NCBI GenBank assembly: GCA_903826635.1
Contig: CAIKFI010000046.1
Coordinates: 1 to 40,309, forward strand
Reading direction: 5' to 3'
Length of the DNA: 40,309 nt
From: an uncultured Spartobacteria bacterium
Lineage (GTDB): Bacteria; Verrucomicrobiota; Verrucomicrobiia; Chthoniobacterales; UBA6821
In this document: positions 106-40,309 of the stretch, in pieces
How positions within the stretch are numbered: position 1 is the stretch's first letter
Layout: each line of letters begins with the position of its first letter
The notes under the pieces: model-generated
The model's database searches: none
What the model was told of the DNA's origin: nothing
Seen by the model: the letters and a program-made list of their open reading frames with translations, nothing else
Translations under genes and position numbers: made by a program

Positions 106-1260
106 TTGCAATCAGTTCCGTTATACACTTTGATCCGTCAACGAATGCAAGATGAACAGATACCTCCGATCAAGGACCATGCTCTGATGTCGAGTGATGC
201 TAGCAATGGATCCGGCGTGTTTGAACCAGTGCCGCATCAGGTTGGCTCCGAGCCGGATCTCCAACCGCGTCGCCGCCGTAGCTCCCACTCCGAAATGGAT
301 AAGAACCGCAACCGAAACAAAACGTCTTCAAACCTGAGGCCTAGCAGGAAAAAACAGGCATCCCGAAGAAAGTCCCTTCTCGTTGTTTCTCTCCTGATTG
401 TCTCCGTTGTTTCTTCCTTGATTGTTGGTTTCCTGATCGGAAGAGAATGGAAGACGCGACAGGTCGTGGTCAAAGTTGCTTCCAATGACGAAGTCCTTCC
501 TACTTCCGAGGTCATGGCCCAGATGGATGCTGCTTTTGAAGCTCTAAGGGTGGGGGATTCACACAAGGCAATGATCGGTTTTCAAAATGCCCAGGGCCAG
601 CAACCATTGTTCGGACTTGATTACCTGGTTGCAGAGGCCGCATTCCTTTCCGATGAGACCCAACTTGCCCATGAGGCTGCCGAGCGCGCTGTCACTAAGA
701 ACGAGATGAGCTCTGAGGCCATTCTTCTCCTAGATATGATCAACTTCAACAGGGAAAAAGTTTCAACCGATCGAGGTCCGCAGTTTTCGGCACCTATTGA
801 TACTTTGGAAAGCTCGTTTCGAAAATATGCCGCATCGCATCCCTCCGATTCAAAAGTCTACAGCCTTTGGGGAGAATTGCTCCGCTCGCAGGGAGCCTAC
901 AAAAGCGCGATGGAAAAATTCCGCAGGGGAGCCCTTCGCGCCGATTCACGGGCTGGCTTTTCCTTGCTCTCTGCCAAGGAGGGGCTTTCGCGACTCCAAA
1001 GCGAGCCTTCGAAATCCGGGCACTCCCTCTCCGAAATCACCGCCATGACCGGGGAGCAGGCCCTGGAAGCAGCCTACTCCTCCATGCAGTTAAAAAATCT
1101 CACTGATAGCCTTCAGTTTCTGGAACGCGCGAGGGATTGTTACGATGACGTTGTCTTTCGTGAGATCTTGAAAGATCCGGCTTTTGATCCCTTCCGTTCG
1201 GAACCCCAACTCAAGGGATTTTTCAAAAAGGGGTCCGAGCACGGCAAAAGCGCATCCTGA
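106..1260 (+). CDS. Single-pass membrane protein with Arg/Lys-rich N-terminus and TPR-like C-terminal region
   Basis: ORF of 384 aa; TM segment KSLLVVSLLIVSVVSSLIVGFLIG after basic stretch RRRRR..KKQASRRKS; helical TPR-like repeats. 106 is a TTG start; ATG at 145 is an alternative. Confidence 0.65.
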   Translation: MQSVPLYTLIRQRMQDEQIPPIKDHALMSSDASNGSGVFEPVPHQVGSEPDLQPRRRRSSHSEMDKNRNRNKTSSNLRPSRKKQASRRKSLLVVSLLIVSVVSSLIVGFLIGREWKTRQVVVKVASNDEVLPTSEVMAQMDAAFEALRVGDSHKAMIGFQNAQGQQPLFGLDYLVAEAAFLSDETQLAHEAAERAVTKNEMSSEAILLLDMINFNREKVSTDRGPQFSAPIDTLESSFRKYAASHPSDSKVYSLWGELLRSQGAYKSAMEKFRRGALRADSRAGFSLLSAKEGLSRLQSEPSKSGHSLSEITAMTGEQALEAAYSSMQLKNLTDSLQFLERARDCYDDVVFREILKDPAFDPFRSEPQLKGFFKKGSEHGKSAS

Positions 1261-1407
1261 AATATTTTTCGTAGACTCCTAAGGGCAAGCCGTTTTGAGT
1301 TTTTTAATGAAACCTTCAAAAAAATGGCGCTTGCAAGGTGAGCTTTCGTCCTTTTTGATCCTTCTCTATTTTTCCAAGAATCTACCAAGTATTCTCACCT
1401 AGTTTTC

Positions 1408-2259
1408 ATGTTTCTCACTCTTCCACTGATCGCAAGCGCCGAACTCTCGGCAGAAACTCCCGAGTTTTTGACGCACTCGTTTTTGGCATGGTTGACCAAT
1501 TCGATTCTTGTGACCGCCATCGTCCTCGGATTGATCACCTGGATGGTCCGTTCCTGCACCCGAAAAATCGCCATCATTCCAGGCCCGGGGCAGAATTTTC
1601 TGGAAGCGGTCGTGGAGGGATTCTTCGGCGCCGTTGAGGGGATCCTCGGTGACAAGATGACCCGCAAGTCGTTTGGGCTCCTAGGGTCACTTTTCATTTT
1701 TATACTGATCTCGAACTGGTTCGGTCTTCTCCCCGGAGTTGGTAGTATCGGTTGGGGCGTGAAGGATGGATTTCTTTCCCTGAGCAGCATTCAGTCCCCG
1801 CTGCTTCGTCCCGGCACTGCCGATATGAACATGACGATTGCCATGTCAGTTGTCTCAATGATCCTTTGGTTTTACTGGACGATGCAGATCACTGGACCTG
1901 TCGCATTCATCAAGGAACTTTTCGGGGTGAAGGGTGGAATGACCGGGCCCATTCTATTTCTCTTGGTGCCCTTGTTTCTTTTCGTAGGTGTTTTGGAAGT
2001 CGTGTCGATCCTTGTTCGTCCTGTCTCCCTGTCTCTTCGACTCTACGGAAACATTTTTGCCGGTGAGAACATGCTGGCAACGATGATCAACATCGGACAC
2101 CTGTTCCATTGCCCCGGATGGCTGACCTCTGTGTTGAGTTGTATTGTCCCTATCCCTTTTTACTTTCTGGAATTGCTGATCGGATTCCTGCAAGCCATGG
2201 TTTTTACGCTCCTGATCATTGTTTATCTCCAACTCTCGACAACACACGAAGAACATTAA
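1408..2259 (+). CDS. atpB: F1Fo ATP synthase subunit a
   Basis: Motifs SLSLRLYGNIFAGENML and FLQAMVFTLLIIVYL; operon position. Confidence 0.96.
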   Translation: MFLTLPLIASAELSAETPEFLTHSFLAWLTNSILVTAIVLGLITWMVRSCTRKIAIIPGPGQNFLEAVVEGFFGAVEGILGDKMTRKSFGLLGSLFIFILISNWFGLLPGVGSIGWGVKDGFLSLSSIQSPLLRPGTADMNMTIAMSVVSMILWFYWTMQITGPVAFIKELFGVKGGMTGPILFLLVPLFLFVGVLEVVSILVRPVSLSLRLYGNIFAGENMLATMINIGHLFHCPGWLTSVLSCIVPIPFYFLELLIGFLQAMVFTLLIIVYLQLSTTHEEH

Positions 2260-32221: not shown

Positions 32222-33121
32222 TTAACCAACCCGGTCCACGGTGACTTCGACAATCATCTTGCGTGTTCCCTTGCCTCGGAAGGTTCCTCCCACCGGTCGG
32301 ATGTCCGTGTAATCTCGACCAACTGCAAGTTTTACGTAACGGGTGTCGGATTCACGGCAATGGGTAGGATCGTATCCCTTCCACCCGTATCCCGGGATGT
32401 AGACCTCCAGCCAAGCATGGCTTGCCTCGATTTCTCCAGGGAGTCGGTTTTTGTTGAGGAAATAGCCGCTGACGTATCTTGCGGGGATTCCGTGGGTTCG
32501 CAGCAATCCCAGCATCAGGTGAGCAAAGTCCTGACAGACGCCCTCCTTTTTTTTCACGACCTCTACGGCGCGTGTGTTCACATTGGTTGATTGCGGAGTA
32601 TACTTGTAGTTGCGGTGAATGTGTTCTCCGATGGAGACCGTGTCGTTCCAGATATCCTTAAGACCCGAAGGAAGGGCATCAATGGCCTCGCGCCAAACCT
32701 CTGCATCAAGGGAGACAAATTCGGAACTTTGGAGAAAATCAAAGAACTGCTCCTTGATTGTCGAAGATGCGATCGTGCCGGGATCGGTAACCGGGACAGG
32801 GCCCCTGTTTTCCGGGAGAGTCTGCACCGTTGAGATGGCTTGAACTTCGAGCGACTCGTGCGGATCAGGGACATCGAAATAGTGGACGCAGTTGGCGTAG
32901 AAATCGGGATAATCGCGGATCTGGGAGTCGGGGTTGATCTTGAACTGGAACTCCCTGCATTGCTGGAGGGAGTCGCTCATTGGTTGAAGGCGTGCCTCGT
33001 TGAAGCTGTCCCTAACGTGTCCCTCGTAGGTGTATCGCGTGAGATGAGAGATGTTAAGGAGCAGCGGCTCCGTCCAAGGAAGATCACCGACTCCCTTTGG
33101 GGTTTCATTGGGATGCATCAT
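32222..33121 (-). CDS. Transglutaminase-like cysteine peptidase domain protein
   Basis: LNISHLTRYTYEGHVRDSFNEARLQP; GVCQDFAHLMLGLLRTHGIPARYVSGY; ASHAWLEVYIPGYGWKGYDPTH (Cys-His-Asp). Confidence 0.93.
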   Translation of the reverse strand: MMHPNETPKGVGDLPWTEPLLLNISHLTRYTYEGHVRDSFNEARLQPMSDSLQQCREFQFKINPDSQIRDYPDFYANCVHYFDVPDPHESLEVQAISTVQTLPENRGPVPVTDPGTIASSTIKEQFFDFLQSSEFVSLDAEVWREAIDALPSGLKDIWNDTVSIGEHIHRNYKYTPQSTNVNTRAVEVVKKKEGVCQDFAHLMLGLLRTHGIPARYVSGYFLNKNRLPGEIEASHAWLEVYIPGYGWKGYDPTHCRESDTRYVKLAVGRDYTDIRPVGGTFRGKGTRKMIVEVTVDRVG

Positions 33122-33123
33122 GG

Positions 33124-34200
33124 CTATTGCTGTTGCATTTGCTGCTGTTGAAGGAAAATCTCCGACTCAAGGTCCACGGGAGGATGATACATGTATTCCT
33201 GGTAAATATGGTCGTCCAAGTGGTCGAGTGCAGTCTGGACTTTCTGAAGGAACTGATGAAGTCCGCTGTTGAGGATTTCCTCGATAGTCATGAAGTTCAG
33301 ATCAGAGAGTAGTTTTCCGAAAGCCCGTTCCTCAGCGCTCTTGTATTGGCGTTGTTCCTTCCCACTCAAGCGATGGAGGTCCTCGTCAAGATGACGCATG
33401 CAGGAGACGATTGAACGAGGAAAAGTGGTGGAGAAGATCAAAAACTCGGCGACTTTTTTTGGAAGGATATCATCCACGTGGAAGCGGCGATAAGCCTCCA
33501 ACGCGCTTGCGGAGCGCAGAATGGCCTGCCATTGGGCTGCATCCACGGCTCCTCCAATTTCAGCAACGCTCGGAAGGAGAATATGGTATTTGATGTCAAG
33601 AATACGGGAGGTCTTGTCGGCACGCTCCAGGAATTTTCCCAGATTGATGAATTCATAGCCCTCGTTGCGGGTGTAGGTCGAGCCCGTGAGGCCTTGAAAA
33701 AGATGTGAGTATTTTTTGATCTGGTCGTAGAAATCGTGGGCTCCTGTCTGCCACACTTCGCGGGCATTCCTGGATTTGAGGAAGAGGTAGCACTCATTCA
33801 GCGTCTCGAACATCTCGATGGAGATCTGGTCGCGGACCTGTCGGGCGTTTTCCCGAGCGGAAAAAAGGCAGGAGATGATGGAGTTGGGGTTCTCTTCCCG
33901 GAAAGTCAGGAACTCCGTCACGGTCTCGCTGTCGGCTTTCTCATAGAATTTGAAAAAAGTCTCTTCATCACCCGCCGAGCACAGAATGGGCAGCCAGTGT
34001 TCCTTGAGTTGCTGATCGTTGAGGTCGGAAAAATCGAGCATCAACTGAAGGTTCACATCAAGAAGGCGCGCAATATTCTCGGATCGTTCGATATAGCGGC
34101 TCATCCAGTAGAGGGAGTTGGCCACACGGGAGAGCATGCCGGGATTATCGCGCCGGTTGGTGATCGGCTTTTGGGCGGTGAAAGAAGCTAGTTCGGTCAT
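33124..34200 (-). CDS. Alpha-E (DUF403) domain protein
   Basis: MLSRVANSLYWMSRYIERSENIARLLDVNLQLMLD; position between ATP-grasp and transglutaminase. Confidence 0.93.
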   Translation of the reverse strand: MTELASFTAQKPITNRRDNPGMLSRVANSLYWMSRYIERSENIARLLDVNLQLMLDFSDLNDQQLKEHWLPILCSAGDEETFFKFYEKADSETVTEFLTFREENPNSIISCLFSARENARQVRDQISIEMFETLNECYLFLKSRNAREVWQTGAHDFYDQIKKYSHLFQGLTGSTYTRNEGYEFINLGKFLERADKTSRILDIKYHILLPSVAEIGGAVDAAQWQAILRSASALEAYRRFHVDDILPKKVAEFLIFSTTFPRSIVSCMRHLDEDLHRLSGKEQRQYKSAEERAFGKLLSDLNFMTIEEILNSGLHQFLQKVQTALDHLDDHIYQEYMYHPPVDLESEIFLQQQQMQQQ

Positions 34201-34245
34201 GAATCAAAAAGGTTAATTTTTCGGCTTGTGCACTGGTTTTGGGTC

Positions 34246-35703
34246 CTAAGAGTCCCCGTTGAGAACCCAGGTGTCTTTTGATCCTCCTCCCTGGGAGGAG
34301 TTCACAACGAGGGATCCCTTCCTCAGGGCCACCCGTGTCAATCCTCCGGGGGTCACGGAGACTTTTTCGCCGTAGAGAATGTAGGGACGAAGATCGACAT
34401 GCCGCCCCTCAAGAGCGCCAACCTCCTCGGCATTGCACCAGGTCGGGTGTCGGGAGAGGGAGATGGGATGCTGGGCGATGAAATTCCTGGGGTTGGCCAG
34501 GATCTGTTCCCTGAAGGTCGAAACCTCCTCCTTCGTAGCCCACGGCCCCATGAGCATTCCATATCCACCGGCCTCGTTGGCCGATTTGACAACCAGTTTC
34601 TCGAGGTTTTCGAGAATGAACATGCGGTCCTTGTTTTCACTCGCAAGGTAGGTGTCGACATTCTGCAGGATGGGATCCTCGCCAAGGTAATATTTGATGA
34701 TCTGAGGCACGAAGTAATAGACCACCTTGTCATCGGCGACACCCGTGCCGATGCTGTTGGCCAGACTCACATTGCCGGAACGGTAGGCATTGACCAATCC
34801 CGGCACACCAAGCATCGAGTCGGAACGGAAAACCGTGGGATCCAGGAAATCGTCATCGATTCTCCTGTAAATGACGTCGACCGGAACAAGCCCGGATGTG
34901 GTGCGCATGTAAACCTTTGCGTCTCGGACAACAAGATCCCGTCCTTCGACAATCGGAATCCCCATCTGGCGAGCCAGAAAAGAGTGCTCGAAATAGGCGC
35001 TGTTGAAGACCCCCGGAGTTAGCAGAACAACGTTGGGTTGAGAAGCGCCAAGGGTGGGAGGAGAGACAAACTGGAGGAGTTTGCGCAACTCTGCGGCGTA
35101 ACTGTCAACCGGATGCACCCGGGCTGAGCGGTAAAGATCCGGAAAAGCCCGCTTGAGTGCGGCCCTGTTTTCCAGCATGTAGCTGGCTCCGGAAGGACAA
35201 CGGAGATTGTCCTCAAGGACCAGGTAATTTCCATGCCGGTCGCGGATAAGATCCGTCCCGCAGATATGAATGTAGATGTCCTTGGGGACATTGAACCCCA
35301 TGAATTCACGACGGAAATGCTTGGCTCCTAGAATATAGTGGGGAGGAATAATCCGATCCTTCAGAATTTTCTGCTCGTGATAAATGTCGTGCAGGAAAAG
35401 GTTCAGCGCCGTGATGCGTTGGATCAGTCCTTTCTCGATCCGTTGCCACTCGGTGTCGGGTATCACACGCGGCACAAGGTCGAATGGAAAAATACGCTCG
35501 GTTCCCTGATCGTCGTTGTAGACGGTAAAGGTTACGCCGCCACGCATGAATGCAAGGTCAACGGCCGTCTGCTTGCGACGGTATTCTGAGCGATCCAAGA
35601 GTTTGAATCGTTCGGCAACCTTTTGGTAATGGGGACGGATTCCCCCATCTTCAAGGAACATCTCGTCAAAAAAGTCTTCCGTTTTGTAATTGTCTGTCAG
35701 CAT
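34246..35703 (-). CDS. Circularly permuted ATP-grasp (type 2) protein
   Basis: [88 protein letters not shown]. Confidence 0.94.
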
Positions 35704-38087: not shown

Positions 38088-38295
38088 CTTTACTTCCTAA
38101 CACTCTGGGAGCGTCATGCAACAAATCTTCACGGATTGTCAGTCAAGGAGAGTCGTCCGTTCCAGCGCCCTGAGCATTGAAATTCCAGAATTCGGGTGGT
38201 GATCAGGGGAAGCGATGAGCAGGGATATCCAGTGTTTTGGTCTTGTCGTTAGGATGAGTTGCCCAAGGCTCGGGGAGTTCTGTAGAGTCCATGGA

Positions 38296-38883
38296 ATGAT
38301 CAGGGCAATTCTTTTCATGGCTTTGCTTCTCGCGGTTGCCGATCGTGCTTTTGCGGATCGGATTCTTTGTAATCAAACCGCTTCGGACGATCAACCCAAA
38401 GAACGGAGGATGATGGATCGCATTCTTCATCCCGACACCACGTTGAAAAGCTCCTACAATAATAAAATATTCAACCCTTTAGGGAGTGTTAAAATGAAGG
38501 AATATAACACCAAAGAGTATGCGGGAATCAAAGAGTTCTCCTCAAAGTCTTTCATGACGAAGTCGTTTGACGGGATGAAAAAAAACTGGTCCGGGCTCCT
38601 CAAGTACGCCGATTTTTTTTCCCATAAAAAAACTAGTAAAGAGTATCAGGTGAAAAACTTTGAGGCCACCAAGTCGTTCCCCTCGAGGAATGTCAAGACA
38701 GGCAGCTATCCGGAGCTGGATAAAAAGAGTTCCTATTCCACGCAAGATTCCTATTCCACTCGAGAGTTTATCGAAAAAGGGAAGACACAAGGTGCGATTG
38801 ATAATAACGAGAAACTCCAGCAATCCATCAAAAAAGGGCTTTCCATCGATGAGGTGAGAAATCTCCTCAACAAAGCGCCTTGA
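38296..38883 (+). CDS. Putative secreted protein with periodic xxKx[YF] repeats
   Basis: Signal MIRAILFMALLLAVADRAFA; KMKEY NTKEY AGIKEF SSKSF MTKSF and later TSKEY QVKNF EATKSF; ATG 38296 preferred. Confidence 0.7.
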   Translation: MIRAILFMALLLAVADRAFADRILCNQTASDDQPKERRMMDRILHPDTTLKSSYNNKIFNPLGSVKMKEYNTKEYAGIKEFSSKSFMTKSFDGMKKNWSGLLKYADFFSHKKTSKEYQVKNFEATKSFPSRNVKTGSYPELDKKSSYSTQDSYSTREFIEKGKTQGAIDNNEKLQQSIKKGLSIDEVRNLLNKAP

Positions 38884-38928: not shown

Positions 38929-40107
38929 ATGAATCCTTTCGCCGATCAAATCGCCCCGCTCGTCTCCGGATGTGCCCAAGTCCTCAGTGAGAAGGAGCTC
39001 GCCGCCAAGTTAGCTCTGGGTCGCCCGCTCCGGGTGAAGCTTGGAGTCGATCCGACTTCTCCCGACATCCACCTTGGTCACACGGTCAGCCTTTCGAAAC
39101 TGCGACAGTTTCAGGAGTTCGGCCATGAGGCCATTCTGATCATCGGTGATTTCACGGCCATGATCGGCGACCCTAGCGGTCGCTCCGCGACACGTCCCCA
39201 TCTCAACCACGAGCAGGTCATGGAGCATGCCAAGACCTATCAGGAACAAGCGTTCCGGATCCTCGATCCCGAAAAAACCACTGTGCGTTACAACGGGGAG
39301 TGGTTCAAGGCGATGGGCTTCGAGGATGTCATCAGGCTGAACAGCCGGGTCACACTCCAGCAAATGCTCCAGCGTGAGGATTTCCGGGAACGTATCGACA
39401 AGGGGCTTCCCGTCCGCGCCCATGAGATCCAGTATCCGATCATGCAGGGATGGGACTCGGTCGTCATCAAGGCGGACGTTGAGTTGGGCGGCACCGATCA
39501 GTTGTTCAATATTCTCGTCGGCAGGGATCTCCAGCACGAAGAGGGGCAGCATCAGCAGGTTGCCATGATGCTCCCCATCTTGACCGGTTTAGATGGCGTT
39601 CAGAAGATGAGCAAGAGTCTTGGGAATGCTGTGGGTGTTGCCGAGGCTCCCGGTGAGATGTTCGGAAAGATCATGAGCATTTCCGACACCCAGATGACCG
39701 ACTTTTACCGACTTCTTCTTCATGAGGAGATTGATCCGACGATGCATCCGATGGAGGCCAAAAAATCATTGGCCGAACGGCTCACCACCCGATTCCACTC
39801 GGCATTGCTTGCCAAAGGTGCCCGGGAAGAGTTTGAACTCCGCTTCTCGAAGAAGGATCTGGAGGCTGCCGACCTGCCCTCCTACATTCCCGTCGAAGGA
39901 CTTCCCTGTGATATTGTTTCGCTCGGGGTGGATGCTTTTGAGAAGTCTTTTGGGGTTAAGAAGTCCCGTGGTGACGTCCGTCGCCTTGTCGAAGGGGGAA
40001 GTGTCTCCTGGCGGGGGGAGAAGATCACCGATCCCAAGGCCATGCTCTCCCTGGAAGAACCGGGTGTCCTGAAACTAGACCGCCGGAATGCTGTCAAAAT
40101 TGGTTAG
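38929..40107 (+). CDS. tyrS: Tyrosyl-tRNA synthetase
   Basis: LRVKLGVDPTSPDIHLGHTVSLSKLRQFQEFGHEAILIIGDFTAMIGDPSGRS; KMSKSLGN; C-terminal S4-like region. Confidence 0.96.
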   Translation: MNPFADQIAPLVSGCAQVLSEKELAAKLALGRPLRVKLGVDPTSPDIHLGHTVSLSKLRQFQEFGHEAILIIGDFTAMIGDPSGRSATRPHLNHEQVMEHAKTYQEQAFRILDPEKTTVRYNGEWFKAMGFEDVIRLNSRVTLQQMLQREDFRERIDKGLPVRAHEIQYPIMQGWDSVVIKADVELGGTDQLFNILVGRDLQHEEGQHQQVAMMLPILTGLDGVQKMSKSLGNAVGVAEAPGEMFGKIMSISDTQMTDFYRLLLHEEIDPTMHPMEAKKSLAERLTTRFHSALLAKGAREEFELRFSKKDLEAADLPSYIPVEGLPCDIVSLGVDAFEKSFGVKKSRGDVRRLVEGGSVSWRGEKITDPKAMLSLEEPGVLKLDRRNAVKIG

Positions 40108-40127
40108 GAATGGTTGAATTTCAATCC

Positions 40128-40309
40128 ATGAGTAACCTTTCCAAAGATCTTTCGTTCGACCAAAGGGCCTGTTTTATTGCGGGACCGGAAATCACGGGCA
40201 CCACGCTGATGTGTTCCTTGCTGGATGGGCATCCCAATCTGGCGGTTTTTCCTGAAGAGACCAACTACATGCGCACGGTTTTGCCCAGAATGGGTCATCT
40301 CCCGCTGCA
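40128..40309 (+). CDS. Sulfotransferase family protein, 3'-truncated by window end
   Basis: Own translation MSNLSKDLSFDQRACFIAGPEITGTTLMCSLLDGHPNLAVFPEETNYMRTVLPRMGHLPL, open to the window edge; PAPS 5'-phosphosulfate loop-like GxxxTGTTLM..LLDGHP; ATG 40110 is an alternative in-frame start. Confidence 0.7.
   Translation, partial: MSNLSKDLSFDQRACFIAGPEITGTTLMCSLLDGHPNLAVFPEETNYMRTVLPRMGHLPL

Follow-up and report, generated by a model that had tools for sequence, protein, structure and literature searches.

An exported lysine-aromatic repeat protein encoded upstream of tyrS and its putative role in the verrucomicrobial cell envelope

Results

The repeat-protein gene and its product

The DNA analysed here (the window) is a stretch of 40,309 nucleotides from an uncultured Spartobacteria bacterium with a genome of 2.1 Mb; the named relatives found for it are MAGs of Verrucomicrobia that bear the labels Spartobacteria and Xiphi-315. 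Near the end of the window lie a gene coding for an exported repeat protein and, downstream of it, tyrS. The features of this region are as follows:

38296..38883, + strand: whole coding sequence of the 195-aa exported repeat protein; stop codon TGA at 38881-38883, homologs with the same start region
38296..38355, + strand: signal peptide, residues 1-20; cleavage after AFA predicted by eye
38392..38436, + strand: conserved N-terminal block, residues 33-47 (QPKERRMMDRILHPD); from the alignment, with a low-confidence AF2 helix at 35-44
38446..38568, + strand: first repeat array, residues 51-91, KSSYNNKIF...KEYNTKEYAGIKEFSSKSFMTKSF; periodicity, dN/dS 0.04-0.26
38587..38595, + strand: WSG, residues 98-100; neither W nor G varies within the genus-level alignment, and relatives have KNPWFG at the aligned site
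38626..38769, + strand: second repeat array, residues 111-158, KKTSKEYQVKNFEATKSF...STQDSYSTREF; periodicity
38776..38880, + strand: C-terminal module, residues 161-195, KGKTQGAIDNN...GLSIDEVRNLLNKAP; from the alignment and AF2
38929..40107, + strand: tyrS (tyrosyl-tRNA synthetase), 45 nt downstream of the repeat-protein gene

Inspection of the sequence bore out the open reading frame, its coordinates, the signal peptide and the repeats listed in the initial annotation. With the start at 38296, a hydrophobic segment follows directly after the initiator Met, and a hydrophobic N-terminus is also present in aligned homologs; an alternative in-frame ATG at 38215 is a less likely start. The predicted mature protein has 175 residues, a pI of 9.6, a net charge of +11 and a GRAVY of -1.08, and is thus very hydrophilic. 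The net charge of its relatives ranges from +2 to +16, Cys is nearly absent from them, and some have lipobox-like N-termini (for example LAGC in L134, LSSC in L124, LCSC in L183). The lipoprotein-like relative in L183 (3860-4519; also in L184 and L185) belongs to a genus with single-contig genomes of ~3 Mb.

Two further regions of the window were assigned by eye. At 32222-35703 (- strand), there are three same-strand genes, which look transglutaminase-like, alpha-E-type, and circularly-permuted ATP-grasp-type. The ORF that follows tyrS and runs off the window end (40117-40309) looks sulfotransferase-family-like.

Periodicity of the repeats

The window protein contains 18 aromatic residues after residue 25, separated by spacings of 5, 11, 5, 6, 5, 5, 7, 6, 3, 1, 9, 5, 6, 10, 9, 6 and 5. 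With 5000 shuffles of the protein as the expectation, 10 of the 17 spacings equal 5-6 (2.2 expected; no shuffle reaches 10), and Lys or Arg stands two residues before 11 of the 18 aromatics (3.4 expected; no shuffle reaches 11), in agreement with the layout proposed from the sequence alone. The phase is kept in homologs: summed over 40 distant relatives, spacings of 5-6 occur 171 times versus 59 expected, and K/R at -2 occurs 265 times versus 91. When order-level members were pooled, the aromatic spacing peaked exactly at 5 (185 versus 45 expected), a spacing of 6 was found 85 times (41 expected), and spacings 2-4 were depleted. The position at i-2 was K or R in 341 of 612 pooled cases, versus ~108 expected. 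The residues enriched around F/Y in the pooled set were K/R at -2 and +3, T at -3 and +2, G at -4 and +2, and D/E at +4. Judged from these sequence statistics, the repeat unit of the family is [T/G][K/R]x[F/Y]x, essentially five residues. The unit xxKx[YF] given earlier is corrected, its periodic character being upheld, and conserved non-repeat ends and the link to tyrS are added to that description. Relatives in other orders have a spacing peak of 59 versus 18.6 expected and K/R at -2 in 128 cases versus 45.8; these statistics are not independent, because both the repeats and the C-terminus form part of the profile that selected the hits. Phe is more common than Tyr in the family (7.3% versus 3.6%) and the two interchange; Tyr is missing altogether from the examined region of L070 and L073. 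Family middle regions contain 3.6% Q and 3.9% N.

Pentapeptide-repeat proteins (PF00805 and relatives), which form a right-handed quadrilateral beta-helix, likewise have a five-residue phase in which one position is aromatic or large and hydrophobic. In those proteins, the residue at i-2 is small (A/S/T/V/C) and is packed inside the coil, whereas the repeat protein has Lys/Arg at i-2, and frame gaps of 6-11 break its array. An uninterrupted five-residue beta-helix frame was not found, since spacings of 5, 6, 7, 9, 10 and 11 occur. A Pfam search with 36 members gave no pentapeptide-repeat match (PF00805 etc.) at E ≤ 1, and the initial annotation was right to set the protein apart from the A(D/N)LxX family. 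It had also recognised no named family, and indeed no Pfam or NCBIfam family matches the repeat protein, no relative was found among PDB sequences or plasmid records, and literature searches returned no description of such a family. We rate the family, of which the window protein is here the founding member, as new and lineage-specific; its general kind, that of exported, repetitive, disordered envelope proteins, is known.

Conserved ends and predicted structure

The repeats are enclosed by conserved ends. The N-terminal block after the signal peptide aligns family-wide as QExxLxDRIxxPD, and the C-terminal module, which ends in the helix motif LTIDEVRELLNK, is the most conserved part of the family. 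The motif was present in 11 of 17 first-round class-level ORFs, compared to 1 of 4401 control ORFs. L118 and L119, first matched by the N-terminal and repeat part only, nonetheless have the motif at their ends. Matches in families f16 and f15/g151 lack it when searched by regular expression and are doubtful members.

AF2 gave no usable fold: pLDDT was 54 for the single sequence and 48 with two relatives (3-row alignment). In both low-confidence models, most of the predicted helix lay at the ends and around W98, the repeats were mostly unstructured, and no beta strands were predicted. Helices are predicted in the C-terminal module at 163/165-179 and 184-192, with block-mean pLDDT of ~55-73.

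The module was compared with three known features. A sorting signal of the PEP-CTERM-like kind was ruled out: with a C-terminal profile, no second match per genome was found below E 0.5 in 8 genomes, further hits being at chance level, and the motif is not a general sorting signal, because no other convincing carrier protein was found in them. Crosslinking through a terminal Lys, as in Lpp, was considered and set aside on account of the varying last residue: most order-level members end in K or R, but others, among them the majority of the window's own genus, end in P, E or Q. Finally, the stretch KGLSIDEVRNLLNKAP is superficially like the BamE/SmpA_OmlA motif (G-M-T-x-x-x-V-x-x-x-L-G-x-P). 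In BamE, this motif lies at the beginning of a domain that contains beta strands, whereas in the repeat protein the motif-like stretch is the very C-terminus; none of the 36 members matches Pfam SmpA_OmlA.

Distribution and selection

The family was matched in 15 of 16 genomes of the window's genus. The remaining genome, G012, has neither a family match nor a tyrS match, and the region may therefore be missing from its assembly. A profile search of the order found members in 126 of 197 sampled genomes and 35 of 45 genera, almost always as one copy; a deeper profile, A5, recovered further members in other orders of the class (104 of 384 genomes, 47 of 171 genera). No member outside the class was found at E ≤ 0.001 in the phylum sample. 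On this sampling, the family appears to be single-copy and restricted to the class Verrucomicrobiae, so the lineage specificity first suggested is retained, with its reach corrected to the class. Over the whole gene, dN/dS for genus-level pairs is 0.11-0.28, indicative of purifying selection, and in the first repeat array it is 0.04-0.26, showing that the repeats are selected as well as the ends. The features that define the family are the signal peptide, the five-residue K/R-x-F/Y phase, the C-terminal LTIDEVRELLNK helix, and one copy per genome.

Genome context

Of 40 diverse order-level loci, 34 have tyrS directly downstream of the repeat-protein gene on the same strand; the gap has a median of 19.5 nt and is <65 nt in 31 of the 34. 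A check of this linkage gave no Rfam match and no same-strand terminator-like site. From their position, the two genes are likely co-transcribed. Other neighbours in order-level loci are not conserved.

Outside the order, the neighbours differ from tyrS. Two class-level members (L120:839-2746 and L126:3147-5024) adjoin a gene for a different aminoacyl-tRNA synthetase, proS. Downstream in L126 come an ABC ATPase gene and hprK; the latter is also a neighbour in L124. A neighbouring rpoN is found in L117 and in L133, the latter an order-level locus. In genus g111 of family f50 (L189:3884-7367 and L193:1185-4582), the family gene stands directly before TonB_C, TolB-like PD40 and OmpA/Pal genes. 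In L183, a MotA/ExbB-family gene is located ~2.3 kb away on the opposite strand and shares no operon with the family gene, a layout repeated in L184/L185. We treat the Tol-Pal-like linkage as a lead from one lineage.

Discussion

The reading we favour, albeit with somewhat less than even confidence, is that the repeat protein is a Sec-exported, cationic, largely disordered tether of the cell envelope, whose stickers bind an anionic polymer and whose C-terminal module docks on a partner. Signal-peptide cleavage would yield a mature chain that acts as a flexible tether, and its [T/G][K/R]x[F/Y]x array would provide regularly spaced cation-plus-aromatic stickers. The stickers would bind an anionic envelope polymer, most likely peptidoglycan or LPS, by multivalent weak contacts, and the short C-terminal two-helix module (LTIDEVRELLNK) would dock on a conserved partner in the periplasm or outer membrane. 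Export, the conserved ends, the repeat grammar and the lipoprotein-like relatives fit an unfolded protein that is either periplasmic or tethered to a membrane; disorder of the tether in vivo is presumed from low AF2 confidence and composition. The initial annotation had called the protein secreted and possibly extracellular. The signal peptide agrees with export, but the periplasm is a more likely site than the cell exterior, given the lipoprotein-like relatives and the Tol-Pal-like cluster in one lineage. Binding to DNA or the wall, also raised in that annotation, may occur. A promoter shared with the housekeeping gene tyrS would give steady, growth-linked expression of an envelope protein; the tyrS linkage of most members, although the most strongly conserved feature of the context, is itself silent on envelope role and mechanism. 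A more elaborate proposal, which we consider rather unlikely, is that the pentapeptides form a novel type of array, serving as an unfolded, multivalent organiser of the envelope peculiar to Verrucomicrobiae, which links peptidoglycan and the outer membrane with a partner of the Tol/TonB type and is co-expressed with tyrS.

Two explanations fare poorly. The biased composition could recall a chance low-complexity ORF without function, yet this is refuted by the presence of one copy in most genomes of the order, the conserved ends, the low dN/dS (0.11-0.28) and the kept synteny. Attenuation of tyrS, with the gene serving as a Tyr-rich leader ORF for sensing charged tRNA-Tyr, would explain a position just upstream of tyrS in 34 of 40 loci and the Tyr in the repeats. 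It is largely refuted, and we give it very little weight: F and Y interchange with F the commoner, L070 and L073 do without Tyr in the examined region, the product is ~195 aa long with a signal peptide and has its amino acids under purifying selection, other genes adjoin in other lineages, and no Rfam match was obtained. Binding of nucleic acid in the envelope by cation-aromatic contacts, for DNA uptake or for binding extracellular DNA, would suit a basic, aromatic, exported repeat protein; linkage to competence or pilus genes was, however, not recognised in the examined loci, and we judge this role quite improbable.

A condensate- or fibre-forming extracellular scaffold, whose chains would associate with one another outside the cell through their aromatic stickers, is an unlikely alternative for which the regular aromatic stickers, the polar or charged spacers and the export of the protein speak. 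Its precedent is CsgF of the curli system, likewise exported, with functionally important aromatics; the published account (PMC10133297) describes how its phase separation on the surface of E. coli is driven by Phe residues in the N-terminus. Unlike CsgF, the repeat protein has highly cationic repeats and a different C-terminus, and there is no sequence match between the two; no curli genes were recognised near the examined loci. The high net positive charge opposes self-association, and some relatives are lipoprotein-like. With low Q/N and a five-residue unit, the long Q/N strand-loop-strand repeats of the curli type are absent, and no confident beta structure is predicted, so the amyloid-like character once proposed finds no support. 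About equally unlikely, in our estimate, is an accessory factor of energised TolQRA/ExbBD-TonB-Pal systems, acting in outer-membrane constriction or transport, with the C-terminal helix docked on a Tol/TonB protein. The TonB_C, TolB-like and OmpA/Pal genes of L189 and L193 and the ExbB-family gene of L183-L185 point that way, but direct adjacency is limited to a single genus, the L183 gene shares no operon with the family gene, and in the window's order it is tyrS that adjoins (34 of 40 loci). CpoB/YbgF and other accessory proteins of the Tol-Pal operon are likewise exported, and here too a Tol-Pal-like cluster occurs in one lineage. CpoB consists of a coiled coil and TPR repeats, neither of which was found in the repeat-protein family with Pfam.

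Little is known of the verrucomicrobial cell envelope, and a single-copy exported family that is unnamed in Pfam and NCBIfam, is kept throughout an order and can be traced through the class, and has a defined repeat grammar and conserved ends, is a good entry point to it. Should the protein turn out to bind peptidoglycan or LPS, it would be a clear example from nature of an envelope tether built on cation-aromatic stickers at regular intervals. The position before tyrS provides a synteny handle for members whose sequence similarity has faded. In L158 (G004, of the sister genus), an ORF at 793-1434 (+ strand), found by its position upstream of tyrS, is a likely, strongly diverged member that was missed by the profile, and its C-terminal features are still recognisable.
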